Positions 8,561-26,557 of a stretch of DNA of 28,992 nucleotides are shown one piece after another. Both the position numbers and the translations under genes were made by a program. Within the stretch, counting starts at the first letter, position 1; every line of letters starts with the position of its first letter. The stretch lies in the IMG/VR virus record IMGVR_UViG_3300008267_000602, positions 1 through 28,992 of that record. The stretch is one strand, 5' to 3'. The stretch comes from a virus. The notes beneath the pieces were generated by a model, which searched no databases, was not told the origin of the DNA, and was given only the letters and a program-made list of their open reading frames with translations.

Positions 8561-8618
8561 GCCCTAATAGAAGCTTGCGGTTAGGCTAAGGCAAACCCGT
8601 GATGTGAAGGAGAATCTT

Positions 8619-11600
8619 ATGGAAAAGAAGTCTAAAAAAGACGAGAAGCTTAACAAGAATGCTATCGAAGTAAACCCTACTCTCAAGGAAGCTTCATCCC
8701 GTAAAGTCGTTATATCTTGGGGAAGAATGAACCCTCCAACGATTGGCCACGAAAAGCTCGTGAAAAAGGTTCAAGATACTGCTCGTAAACTTGGCGCAAA
8801 AGCCGAAATTTACTTGAGCCAGTCACAAGACGCAAAAAAGAATCCACTCTCATATTCTGATAAAGTCATGATTGCCAAAGAAGCATTTGGCAGCACTATT
8901 CAGTCGTCACCAGCTAAAACCATTATTGATCTGATGAAACAGCTTCAGTCAAAGTATGATGAAGTTACTTTGGTTGTAGGCCAAGACCGTGTACAAGAGT
9001 TTGAGACTTTGTTAAATAAGTACAACGGTAAAGATTACACAATGAAATCGATTGCTGTAGTTTCTGCTGGAGAAAGAGATCCAGATGCTGATGGTGTCGA
9101 AGGTATGTCAGCCTCTAAGATGAGAGACGCCGCATCAAAAGGTGAAGAAGAAAAATTCAAGTCAGGTCTTCCTAAAAAGCTTCAATTGCATGCACAAGAC
9201 ATCTATGATATGGTTCGTGCGGGTATGAAGTTAACAGAAGATGTTCAGCTTGATGAGTATGTTCTTACATATGCTCAACGACGTCGCCGCGCACTTGTAA
9301 TGCGTAAGTATGAGCGTAAGATGGAAGCAGCACGTGAAAGACTTAAGAATCGTATTGCGTCGAATCAAAAGCTAGCAGTAAGAGCTCGTAAGAAAGCAAT
9401 TGAACTTATTCGCAAGCGAGTTGCAGGCGAACGTGGCGCAAACTACGCAGATCTTTCGCCTTCAGAAAAGATTATGATTGACCAGAAGGTTGAGAAGAGA
9501 AAAGGCGCAATTGCGAAGATTGCTGCTCGTCTTCTACCAAAGGTACGCAAAGCAGAACTTCAGCGAGTTGCTTCTTTACATCAGCAAAAAGAAGACATCG
9601 ATCAGATGTTTGAATCTTTCTTGAATGAAGACTATTACGCAGGTCTAAGTAAATCAACCGCAGCAAAACGCAAAGCACACTTTAATAAGCATGCAAAAAT
9701 GGATGATGATAATCCTGCTGCGTATAAACCGGCTCCAGGTGATGCTACTGCAAAAACAAAGCCTTCAGTACATACACGCCGTTATCATATGATGTATAAC
9801 GGAGATGGATCGCTCAAGTATGATCGTCGTTTCCGCGCATTCCGCCACATTGTTCGCCAAGAAGAAGTCACAGTAGAGAATGATGCAGATCTTCTTGAAA
9901 TGATTATGGTTGCAGAAGAAATCAACAACTCTATTAATCTTGACGAAGCAAAGGCAATGGAAGGTCTGAAGAAGAAAGCTGAGAAGTCAGGCATTTCTTA
10001 TGGTACTTTGAAAAAAGTATTTGACCGCGGAGTTGCTGCATGGAGAACTGGTCATCGTCCAGGCACTACTCCACAGCAATGGGGTTATGCCCGCGTAAAT
10101 TCTTACATTACCAAAGGTAAGGGAACTTACCATGGCGCAGATAAAGATCTTCGTGAAGAGAGTCTAAACGAAGGTGTTAACGACCCTTCGATCTTCAAAG
10201 CGGTATTTCTTGCAGGTGGTCCGGGATCAGGCAAGTCATTCATCGTTGGTAAGACCGCGTTAACAGCACTTGGTTTTAAAGTGATTAACTCTGATGATGT
10301 GTTCGAGCGTGCACTTGTGAAAGCAGGTCTTAAGACTACGCCTGAGGATATCTATTCAGAAAAAGGTCAAGAGATTCGTAGTGCAGCGAAAGCTATCACT
10401 GGAAAGAAAATGGACCTTGCTCTTGCTGGTCGTCTTGGCTTAGTTATTGATGGAACTGGTAAAGATTACGAAAAAATCGAGAAGCAAGCTTCAAAGCTCA
10501 AGAAGCTTGGGTACGAAATCGCGATGATCTTCGTCAACACCGACCTCGATACTGCTAAAGCTCGTAATGCCGCACGTAGCAGATCACTACCGGATACAGA
10601 AGTTGAGTCGATGTGGAACGGTGTTCAAAAGAACATTGGTAAGTTCCAGAACTTCTTTGGTACTAAGATGTTCGTAATCGATAACTCCGAAGGATCTAAC
10701 TTTGAAGGAGCTGTTACTTCTACTTACCGCAAGATCAGTGCATGGGCCAAAGTAACTCCTACGAATCCTGAAGCAAAGTCATGGATTGCTTCAGCGAGAA
10801 CAGTCAAAGAAGATAAGATGTCGGTAAAGCATCATCTTGGAATTGGTGTTCCGTTCAAGCATCAGTACAAAGATAATGTTAAGCACATCGATACTGATCT
10901 TGATGGTGATGTTGATGCAGATGACTTCAAATACTCAGCTCCAGACGAGACAATCGGCGATGATGCTGAGACGAAGAAGCTTCTCAAAAAATATTCTAAC
11001 GAGAAAAAGCACACGCGTAAGGGTGTAGCCTTTGAACAAGCTATTCCTACCCCAGTGATTCCGCCAGAATCAAACGATGGTGATGAAGATCATGCTGAAA
11101 AGCACATTGAAGCTGCTCTGAAACGTGCAAAGAAAATGAAACACTTTAGAGCTTATAATGAAGCTTATGGTGCTGGATTTGAAAATACTGATACTCTCGT
11201 TCAGAATTATAAAAATGCTACGCCAGGCGAAAAAGGATCGGTGAAGAAGCCAAAGATCACTGACGGTGTAAAGATCAATGAAGCATTTGAAGCTCTTGTA
11301 GAAGAACCAGATGTTGAGATCACTGCGTCAAAGATGAAAGACTTCGAAAAGTTCGTTGATCGCATGTTCGAGAAGTTCAAGATCGACTTCGAGTTCACTA
11401 AGCATTTTGGCGACCGTATGAATGACGATCGTAACTCACCAAAGATTAAGCTCAAAGAACTTGCAGATTTGATCAAAAAGATTTATGCTAAGAATGGTAA
11501 TCCGCTCAAAGGCAAAGCTGGTGCTGAGCTTGTGGTGAAAGATCTACAGTCAGACCTCAATATGCCGATCGTTGTTAAGTACGACGAGAAGAACGACGAG

Positions 11601-11672
11601 ATCGATATTGTAGCAAAGACTATTATGCGCAAGAAGAACTTCACAACGCCTAACCCAGTCGTCAAGTACTAA
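8619..11672 (+). CDS. Multidomain cytidylyltransferase-like / P-loop kinase protein, 1017 aa
   Basis: Start ATG 8619 follows AAGGAG with ideal spacing; a GTG at 8604 lies upstream of that site. Domains: basic leader 1-24; cytidylyltransferase (NMNAT-like) domain with GRMNPPTIGH at 35-44 and SASKMR at 164-169; Arg/Lys-rich helical domain about 213-330; YYAGLSKSTAAKR domain from about 338; DUF5824-like domain about 445-510 (GHRPGTTPQQWGYARVNS); P-loop kinase of zeta-toxin type with GGPGSGKS at 533-540 and an INSDD motif; EF-hand/dockerin-like calcium loop at 758-769; and a C-terminal domain with KHFGDR at 928-933. Each piece is known in phages; substrates are unknown. LxE or IxE tripeptides mark most borders, see findings. 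It may be a processed, head-packaged polyprotein. Confidence 0.8.
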   Translation: MEKKSKKDEKLNKNAIEVNPTLKEASSRKVVISWGRMNPPTIGHEKLVKKVQDTARKLGAKAEIYLSQSQDAKKNPLSYSDKVMIAKEAFGSTIQSSPAKTIIDLMKQLQSKYDEVTLVVGQDRVQEFETLLNKYNGKDYTMKSIAVVSAGERDPDADGVEGMSASKMRDAASKGEEEKFKSGLPKKLQLHAQDIYDMVRAGMKLTEDVQLDEYVLTYAQRRRRALVMRKYERKMEAARERLKNRIASNQKLAVRARKKAIELIRKRVAGERGANYADLSPSEKIMIDQKVEKRKGAIAKIAARLLPKVRKAELQRVASLHQQKEDIDQMFESFLNEDYYAGLSKSTAAKRKAHFNKHAKMDDDNPAAYKPAPGDATAKTKPSVHTRRYHMMYNGDGSLKYDRRFRAFRHIVRQEEVTVENDADLLEMIMVAEEINNSINLDEAKAMEGLKKKAEKSGISYGTLKKVFDRGVAAWRTGHRPGTTPQQWGYARVNSYITKGKGTYHGADKDLREESLNEGVNDPSIFKAVFLAGGPGSGKSFIVGKTALTALGFKVINSDDVFERALVKAGLKTTPEDIYSEKGQEIRSAAKAITGKKMDLALAGRLGLVIDGTGKDYEKIEKQASKLKKLGYEIAMIFVNTDLDTAKARNAARSRSLPDTEVESMWNGVQKNIGKFQNFFGTKMFVIDNSEGSNFEGAVTSTYRKISAWAKVTPTNPEAKSWIASARTVKEDKMSVKHHLGIGVPFKHQYKDNVKHIDTDLDGDVDADDFKYSAPDETIGDDAETKKLLKKYSNEKKHTRKGVAFEQAIPTPVIPPESNDGDEDHAEKHIEAALKRAKKMKHFRAYNEAYGAGFENTDTLVQNYKNATPGEKGSVKKPKITDGVKINEAFEALVEEPDVEITASKMKDFEKFVDRMFEKFKIDFEFTKHFGDRMNDDRNSPKIKLKELADLIKKIYAKNGNPLKGKAGAELVVKDLQSDLNMPIVVKYDEKNDEIDIVAKTIMRKKNFTTPNPVVKY

Positions 11673-24998: not shown

Positions 24999-25027
24999 CT
25001 CAAGAACAATAACAAAGGATGAGTATC

Positions 25028-25459
25028 ATGGATCAACTCGCTGAAGCATTGAAGGTTCTGCTTGGAACAGTTTATGGCCTTTCGGTAAAAGCACAAAACT
25101 ATCATTGGAACGTGACTGGGCCAAACTTTGCACAGTATCATGAGTACTTTGGTGAGTTTTATGAAGAGGTTGGTGGTTCTATTGACTCTATCGCAGAGAT
25201 GATCCGTGTTGTAGGATCGTTTGCTCCAGGTTCGTTGTCTCGCTTCAAGGAGCTGAGCCGAATCGAAGATGAGCTCATGATTCCAGAACCACCTCTGATG
25301 TTTGCTCGTCTCGCTCGTGATAATGATGTGGTCATCATGACTCTTTACGAAGTACGGGCCGTAGCAGAACAACTTGGTCAGGCAGGCGTAGTGAACTTCA
25401 TAGAAGATCGAATCACCGCTCATGAGAAACACCGCTGGATGCTCAAAGCTTTCATCTAA
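25028..25459 (+). CDS. dps: Dps-like DNA-protection ferritin
   Basis: A 143-residue four-helix protein of the Dps/ferritin-like family, which forms 12-subunit shells that store iron and guard DNA from oxidants. ATG 25028 is 8 bases after AAAGG; ATG 25019 has no room for that site. Ferroxidase residues are visible: His26 (NYHWNVTGPNF), His38 (QYHEYFGEF), and Asp53 and Glu57 (SIDSIAEMIR). The E. coli Asp67 position is Gly42 here, next to Glu43. There is no long basic N-terminal tail, so direct DNA binding is not evident. It sits alone among tRNA genes, behind a late promoter. Confidence 0.9.
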   Translation: MDQLAEALKVLLGTVYGLSVKAQNYHWNVTGPNFAQYHEYFGEFYEEVGGSIDSIAEMIRVVGSFAPGSLSRFKELSRIEDELMIPEPPLMFARLARDNDVVIMTLYEVRAVAEQLGQAGVVNFIEDRITAHEKHRWMLKAFI

Positions 25460-25733: not shown

Positions 25734-25815
25734 GGTGAGTGGCCCGGATGGTAAGGGGTCGGATTGCAAATCCGAAGCACGCAAGTAGTCAGTTCAATTC
25801 TGACACTCACCTCCA
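25734..25815 (+). tRNA. tRNA-Cys (GCA)
   Basis: Acceptor GGTGAGT/ACTCACC, anticodon stem TCGGA/TCCGA with loop TTGCAAA, T stem GTCAG/CTGAC with loop TTCAATT, and discriminator T with CCA, as Cys tRNAs have. The variable region is enlarged to 12 bases, giving an 82-base gene. Confidence 0.88.
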
Positions 25816-25824
25816 AAATAACGG

Positions 25825-25851
25825 TTGACATTCATGTCGATCAAGTATAGA
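25825..25851 (+). promoter_or_regulatory. Sigma-70-like early promoter for the structured RNA region
   Basis: GTTGACAT with TTGACA at 25825-25830 and TATAGA at 25846-25851, spacing 15. It has the same TTGACATTC core as the promoter at 27285. The expected start is near 25857. Confidence 0.7.
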
Positions 25852-25856
25852 AGAAA

Positions 25857-26091
25857 ATTCGGGATCGAAGAGATCATATCAATCATCCCCGCTCATTGAA
25901 AATTTAAGCATTGTTCCTAGGGGAGGCCCGATGATGGAACTGGAAACAGAAGAGATTCTGTTTTCACATGCACTGATACAGTAGGGTGGCAAGTAGGCGA
26001 GTCTGTTATTGCCGAGGGTTGGAATTCCCGAGTAGTGAACAGCTACAGCAGTGCAGTTGAAAACAGAATCAAGGTATTCTTCGGATTCCAA
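25857..26091 (+). ncRNA. Candidate structured RNA of unknown function
   Basis: About 210 bases without a plausible gene follow a good promoter. Visible structure: GGGAT/ATCCC closing a GATC-GAAGA-GATC hairpin (25861-25889); a GTTCC/GGAAC stem with inner GGG/CCC (25913-25940); and a long helix of 13 perfect pairs (25954-25966 with 26058-26070) continuing, after a 2x2 internal loop, into 7 more (25969-25975 with 26049-26055). It encloses a GGCAA/TTGCC hairpin and a GGG/CCC hairpin. A hairpin with a C(TTCG)G loop follows at 26073-26089. The 3' part overlaps, antisense, the end of the minus-strand gene at 26069. Confidence 0.5.
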
Positions 26092-26557
26092 GCAATCTTG
26101 AAGTTGGGTACGTTTTGTACTTAATCTCATCGTCTTGGTTTCCGCCTAACACAACGTAGCTTGGTACGCCATCTACGACAGCAGACTCTACATAGAAGCC
26201 AACGTGACCTTGCCAGTTATTGTTGTTTCGAGTGAATATTACGATATCTCCGAACTCTGGCTCTTTAACTGGCTCACCCCACTTCAAAAAGCTTCTTGCA
26301 AGAAGTGGATGGCGGCTTACAGTTTCAGACCCAGGAATATCGTGGTACTTGAGCACAGAATTAACAAAGGCTGCACACCATTGGTATCTGACTGGGTCGA
26401 GACCTATGAATTGGCGAATTTCTTTTCTTGAGGTTTTTTCATGTAGACCAATCATAGATGCAGCAGTATCTACCGGCTCAACTGGCGGCATGACACGGCT
26501 CATAAACGTAAAGTCTGAGCACCCTGCAAGGGCGAATATAAGAATAATGTATTTCAT
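26069..26557 (-). CDS. Lipoprotein cysteine peptidase/amidase, TIGR02594-like
   Basis: A 162-residue minus-strand gene. A lipoprotein signal (KYIILIFALAGC, lipid Cys13) precedes an NlpC/CHAP-type cysteine hydrolase of the TIGR02594 group: nucleophile Cys61 in YQWCAAFVNSVL, His118 in GHVGFYVE, Asn140 in VVLGGNQ, plus ARSFLKWG and FGDIVIF. Such enzymes cut peptide bonds in peptidoglycan. With a lipid anchor it would work from the envelope, perhaps helping lysis, superinfection control or particle entry. It stands alone and opposite to all its neighbours. ATG 26557 has no clear ribosome site. Confidence 0.82.
   Translation of the reverse strand: MKYIILIFALAGCSDFTFMSRVMPPVEPVDTAASMIGLHEKTSRKEIRQFIGLDPVRYQWCAAFVNSVLKYHDIPGSETVSRHPLLARSFLKWGEPVKEPEFGDIVIFTRNNNNWQGHVGFYVESAVVDGVPSYVVLGGNQDDEIKYKTYPTSRLLGIRRIP

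Follow-up and report, generated by a model that had tools for sequence, protein, structure and literature searches.

What lies in the gap between a tRNA-Cys gene (25734-25815) and a convergent CHAP-domain lipoprotein gene (26069-26557, minus strand) in a 28,992-base phage fragment from IMG/VR (hereafter the window, meaning the whole stretch analysed)? The final 4.4 kb of the window carries 15 tRNA genes, every one on the plus strand (ARAGORN), and a preliminary description of the locus had proposed a structured RNA behind an early promoter of its own. We found that the gap holds a member of a real and previously uncatalogued RNA family, in which a leader in the style of rRNA operons is followed by a conserved stem with exchangeable heads. 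The anatomy of this RNA we regard as secure, with little room for error. As to its function, we assign a probability of about 0.5 to the reading that the unit serves as leader to transcription units of phage tRNAs and is also set free as a stable tRNA-mimic RNA.

The core of the unit is a long stalk interrupted by a 2x2 internal loop. It had been placed at 25954-25975 with 26049-26070, and was confirmed here as a helix of 25954-25976 with 26048-26070, closed around a head:

25954-25976, plus strand: 5' strand of the stalk, with the conserved arm UUCUGUUUUCACAUG at 25956-25970 and the internal-loop bases C25967 and A25968
25971-26053, plus strand: exchangeable head (83 nt), 93% identical to the head of unit L059_2 and 87% identical to that of L212_1, in unrelated flanks
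26048-26070, plus strand: 3' strand of the stalk, with the conserved arm CAGUUGAAAACAGAA at 26054-26068 and the internal-loop bases G26056 and U26057

The 117 nt from 25954 to 26070 folded at -44.0 kcal/mol, compared with -27.9 kcal/mol for shuffled sequences (z = -5.08), and 0 of 200 shuffles were as stable. Related units were gathered by an arm search of IMG/VR, after which the loci were scanned with arm and pairing rules; most loci without tRNAs returned by the arm searches were dropped as chance or coding matches. The resulting family comprised 57 units on approximately 34 uncultivated-phage contigs, nearly all of them within tRNA arrays and in the orientation of the tRNAs. Its members share a 23-pair stalk with the conserved arms UUCURUUUUCACAU / AGYUGAAAAYAGAA and a variable head of 46-137 nt between them. 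Across 48 distinct arm pairs, 92.2% of the cells were paired (77.6% after shuffling), both sides had changed at 20 of the 23 stalk pairs, and the covariation score was 0.432, compared with 0.155 for shuffled and at most 0.111 for slid partners. This covariation is decisive, and the preservation of the helix by compensating changes in relatives is strongly supported. Because membership was scored on the 15-nt arms, the inner columns 19-25 played no part in selecting members and are free of selection bias; pair 22-33, which lies in these columns, was UA in 23 cases, AU in 18, CG in 3, GC in 3, UG in 1, and unpaired in none. Sequence conservation of the arms, together with the CA/GY internal loop kept by most units, suggests that a protein may recognize the stalk.

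Searches of existing collections returned no earlier record of the family. The exact pattern gave only chance matches, without tRNA context, in bacterial genomes, and a blastn search of 50,697 cultured phage records with the units concatenated found no family member. The few weak matches seen were short, and the one followed up, a blastn match to Salmonella 6S RNA, was rejected as a chance 24-nt match that merely abuts the 6S gene. In a scan of the window with Rfam 15, no family covered the RNA at its gathering score, and the very weak matches were attributable to chance. Among the Rfam 15 matches listed for 18 carrier loci there were only tRNAs, GOLLD, and skipping-rope, and the one that fell on a unit was RF00005 over the tRNA-like head of L230_2. 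A description of the family was not found in the open-access literature searched, although one that escaped this search is possible.

Upstream of the stalk, the leader follows the order H1, boxA, H2, behind a promoter and ahead of an alternative hairpin:

25825-25851, plus strand: sigma70-like early promoter, TTGACA at 25825-25830, a 15-nt spacer, and TATAGA at 25846-25851
25861-25889, plus strand: hairpin H1, GGGAU - CGAAGAGAUCAUAUCAAUC - AUCCC, directly 5' of boxA, the place held by boxB in rRNA operon (rrn) leaders
25891-25906, plus strand: boxA-like element GCTCATTGAAAATTTA, one mismatch from the family consensus GCTCTTTGAMAATTTA
25913-25940, plus strand: hairpin H2, GUUCC-UA-GGG..CCC-GAUGAU-GGAAC
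25941-25966, plus strand: alternative hairpin P0, UGGAAACAGAA-GAGA-UUCUGUUUUCA, 11 bp with a GNRA loop

The early promoter claimed for the RNA was confirmed as the TTGACA/TATAGA pair, from which transcription would start near 25857. It is one of seven TTGACAT-N13-17-TATA sites in the window, where 0.1 would be expected by chance, and promoter-like sites (≤2 mismatches) were approximately 3.5-fold commoner upstream of family units (30 of 57) than in control stretches (84 of 550). The two hairpins that had been noticed upstream of the helix are real and correspond to H1 and H2. In 13 relatives, all five stem pairs of H1 had changed on both sides, 97% of cells were paired, and the loop CGAAGNGAU...UCAAUC was invariant. 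In 12 relatives, H2 was paired in 97.6% of cells, with four of seven pairs changed on both sides and a covariation of 0.571 (0.156 after shuffling). Together with the stalk and the excess of promoter sites, the covarying H1 and H2 strongly support a structured RNA behind an early promoter. What the preliminary description had overlooked was boxA, P0, the tRNA-like heads, and the modular design with its exchange of heads. The GAUGAU region was also examined for hammerhead-like and kink-turn-like readings, neither of which was supported.

The boxA-like element lies downstream of the promoter in the window and is GCTCTTTAACA-like. A boxA-like sequence (≤2 mismatches, ≤200 nt upstream) was present in 29 of 50 units but in only 2 of 1000 control windows, and the E. 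coli rrnB boxA, GCTCTTTAACAATTTA, likewise differs from the family consensus at one position. H1 stands immediately 5' of boxA in the window and most aligned relatives; it is present without boxA in L019, L058, L094, and L097. These four have a second type of leader, with AAGTGGATAAGCGGAACGAGACTGCGAGTAACC and a different hairpin after H1 in place of boxA. P0 and the outer 5' arm of the stalk share bases, so that the two pairings compete, and the nascent 110 nt of the window folded as H1, H2, and P0. P0-type hairpins of at least 8 bp, formed with the sequence just upstream, were found in 22 of 57 units compared with approximately 5% of shuffles; many of their loops are GNRA, and P0 tracks changes in the arm, as in GGAAAUAGAA/UUCUAUUUUC of L086.

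The units are also tied to tRNA genes by position. In a per-unit tally over 50 units with ARAGORN, every tRNA on the carrier loci lay on the strand of the unit (491 to 0), and 23 of the 50 units ended 2-7 nt ahead of a tRNA, most often tRNA-Cys. Leaders of rrn operons have the order boxB, boxA, boxC, and the sequences that flank the rRNAs form leader-trailer helices (PMC10250234). The E. coli rrnB leader has a hairpin and then its boxA. The family shares with rrn leaders the order of promoter, hairpin, and a boxA nearly identical to that of rrnB, and in both the leader precedes untranslated RNA genes and a long helix that encloses a folded RNA. In contrast to rrn leaders, the family drives phage tRNA arrays, its helix encloses an exchangeable head of 46-137 nt rather than rRNA, and no boxC was identified in it. 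We know of no counterpart of the conserved arms, H2, and P0 in rrn leaders. On the sequence features tested, the leader would work like an rrn leader.

Comparison of the window with a homologous locus in L002, a 195-kb phage contig, revealed the exchange of heads. The leader and arms of the two are almost identical, whereas the sequence inside the helix is completely different. The L002 head recurs in L213 (96% identity) and L024_3 (87%), and further heads are shared by L006 and L022_2, by L010 and L022_1, and by others; overall, head types return at 85-96% identity in unrelated flanks. Helices within the heads are compensated in two types (GGGA/UCCC to GAGC/GCUC and CCCA/UGGG to CCAG/CUGG). 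A tRNA-like module at the end of the stem is present in only part of the family, as judged by model for L024_2 and L032_1 and by inspection for the others. Heads of the L002 type resemble a cloverleaf with the T-arm CACG-UUCGAUU-CGUG, yet have a 4-nt 'anticodon' loop. The heads of L024_2 and L032_1 show a permuted tRNA order of T-arm, closed acceptor, and D-arm, and those of L104, L058, L063, and L096 contain two or three T-arms each. Some tRNA-like heads have no anticodon. In L104 (6501-6651, plus strand), three T-arm-like hairpins succeed one another within a single head. In L084 (8904-9028, reverse strand), the head between the arms resembles a whole long tRNA, with acceptor, T-arm, and possibly an anticodon arm, and the changes in the arms are fully compensated.

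These features can be brought together in the following model. From the early sigma70-type promoter, a transcript would be made that forms hairpin H1 first and presents boxA next. Host NusB/S10 would most likely bind boxA, because the H1-boxA order is that of ribosomal RNA leaders, and the resulting antitermination complex would let RNA polymerase read through the untranslated tRNA array. Next to fold would be H2 and the GNRA hairpin P0. Once the polymerase has made the head and the 3' arm, P0 would give up the 5' arm to the 3' arm, and the 23-bp stalk would close around the head; we infer this refolding because the two pairings are mutually exclusive and conserved. Where a tRNA starts 2-7 nt downstream, the RNase P cut at that point would free the 3' end of the RNA. 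The freed stalk-and-head RNA, which has a Y RNA-like layout, might occupy a tRNA-handling or tRNA-cleaving enzyme as a decoy or tether. For YrlA, competition for a tRNA nuclease by a tRNA mimic has been suggested (PMC7790460).

The two halves of this model do not stand equally well. The role in cis, as an rRNA-type leader for antitermination and processing, is likely, with a chance slightly better than even, and is suggested by boxA, order, strand, and position. The role in trans, as a released tRNA mimic, is a tentative proposal that draws on the conservation of the heads and their likeness to tRNA. Going further, the units might form a new modular class of phage RNA, in which a common rrn-like boxA leader and stalk handle present interchangeable tRNA-mimic heads, each for a different host tRNA-handling or tRNA-cleaving defence enzyme, with heads swapped by recombination at the arms; this generalization we consider doubtful. 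Several observations weigh against the combined leader and tRNA-mimic reading. The window, L002, and L014 have no tRNA within hundreds of bases 3' of the stalk, which in the window and L002 is followed by the convergent CHAP gene. Approximately 20 units have no recognizable boxA in the 200 nt upstream. The window head is not recognizable as a tRNA, YrlA, or any Rfam family (neither ARAGORN nor RF00005 found a canonical cloverleaf in it), and some heads have no tRNA feature at all. Finally, a Ro60/Rsr (TROVE) gene was present in none of 15 carrier contigs, although most of these are fragments and the host could carry a copy.

If the proposed leader operates as described, it would bear on how RNA polymerase gets past Rho on the long untranslated tRNA arrays of phages, for which it offers a concrete and testable boxA leader of rRNA-operon form. 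It also bears on why stable non-tRNA RNAs occupy tRNA arrays, a question that has stood since RNAs C and D of phage T4 and for which the family offers exchangeable heads resembling tRNA mimics. The arms, boxA, and H1 can serve as an annotation signature for transcription units in phage tRNA arrays.

The strongest alternative, which we nevertheless consider unlikely, is that the unit acts in cis only: boxA and the stalk would be an antitermination and processing leader cut by RNase III, and the head would be functionless filler derived from neighbouring tRNA genes. The position of units 5' of tRNA runs, on one strand throughout, and their association with boxA are consistent with this explanation, as are the long, near-perfect double-stranded RNA of the stalk and the frequent tRNA fragments in heads, such as repeated T-arms. 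However, filler would not recur at 85-96% identity in unrelated flanks with its helices compensated, the conservation of arm sequence exceeds the needs of double-strand cutting, and in the window no tRNA follows closely.

A phage Y RNA, whose stalk would bind a Ro60-like protein and whose tRNA-like head would bind an effector such as PNPase, is distinctly improbable. YrlA has the same plan of a stem ending in a tRNA-like module, and the Rfam YrlA model (RF02553) spanned L024_2 and L032_1 end to end, matching the T-arm, closed acceptor, D-arm order of YrlA. The scores of 32.0 bits (E 3.9e-5, 501-nt search) and 27.1 bits, respectively, the former being the best in the family, were nevertheless far below the YrlA gathering score of 69, and the window gave no match to this model up to E = 10. 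In addition, the arms were unlike the YrlA stalk consensus in the alignment, most heads, including that of the window, are not YrlA-like, and the 15 carrier contigs, most of them fragments, lacked a TROVE domain. The boxA leader, the many head types, and the position in tRNA arrays also distinguish the family from YrlA. On the YrlA scores and the Ro60 result, the family was not filed as a Y RNA; nor was it filed as a tRNA or as a relative of T4 RNA C/D.

A mobile or recombinational DNA element, with the arms as inverted repeats that move head cassettes, would account for the exchange of heads between otherwise related loci; it is very improbable, since pairing in the arms and inner helix covaries as in RNA, G-U pairs included, the inner helix differs with each head, and the swaps need no more than homologous recombination at the conserved arms. 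Antisense action on the convergent CHAP gene had been suggested, and the RNA does point into the 3' end of that gene; it is scarcely credible given an overlap of approximately 2 nt with the conserved stalk, units in other phages that have a tRNA or promoter at that place, and relatives that carry the RNA without an adjoining lipoprotein gene. Nor does the C(TTCG)G-capped hairpin near 26076, previously counted as part of the RNA, belong to it: this hairpin falls within the 3' end of the CHAP gene, on the other strand, and neither L014 nor L215 has it. One fold closed 25861-26090 with a terminal helix, which was rejected, its 3' side being coding and not conserved in L014, and a protein-coding reading of the locus was discarded, the overlapping open reading frames covering heads that are unrelated between relatives.

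The suggested kinship with T4 RNAs C and D (species 1 and 2) held as an analogy only. Like the family, these are stable non-tRNA RNAs in a phage tRNA cluster; RNA D abuts a tRNA, and the 3' half of RNA C is tRNA-like with a T-arm. The T4 tRNA region contained no arm pair, stalk, or member of the family. In T4 RNA C (L216, 1409-1547, minus strand), we noted the acceptor-like strands ACGGAACG/CGUUUCGU, the T-arm CCGGGTTCGAATCCCGG, and a weak tRNA-Sec match of 17.5 bits. GOLLD and skipping-rope are likewise large or unusual phage RNAs near tRNA genes and occur in the same arrays; they differ from the family in sequence and fold and occupy separate loci, and family units match neither model. GOLLD RNAs were detected in the family's tRNA arrays at L245, 1759-2220 (minus strand, 191.7 bits) and L063, 7909-8367 (minus strand, 182.3 bits), and in both the matched stretch contains a tRNA call. 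A skipping-rope RNA (RF02924, 43.7 bits) directly follows a tRNA at L065, 2726-2843 (plus strand), in an array that holds two family units; being a separate RNA further along L065, it was rejected as the identity of the family.

In a Listeria phage, early transcripts of unknown identity with TTGAC/TATAMT promoters have been reported to be abundant next to the tRNA genes (PMC12282133). By analogy, this shows that loci of such a kind can be strongly expressed, and it does not imply that those transcripts are related to the family. Two further genes of the window, both on the plus strand, were recorded: 8604-11672 encodes a 1022-aa protein in which a cytidyltransferase-like part is fused to an AAA/zeta-toxin-like kinase part, and 25019-25459, within the tRNA array, encodes a ferritin-like (Dps-type) protein.
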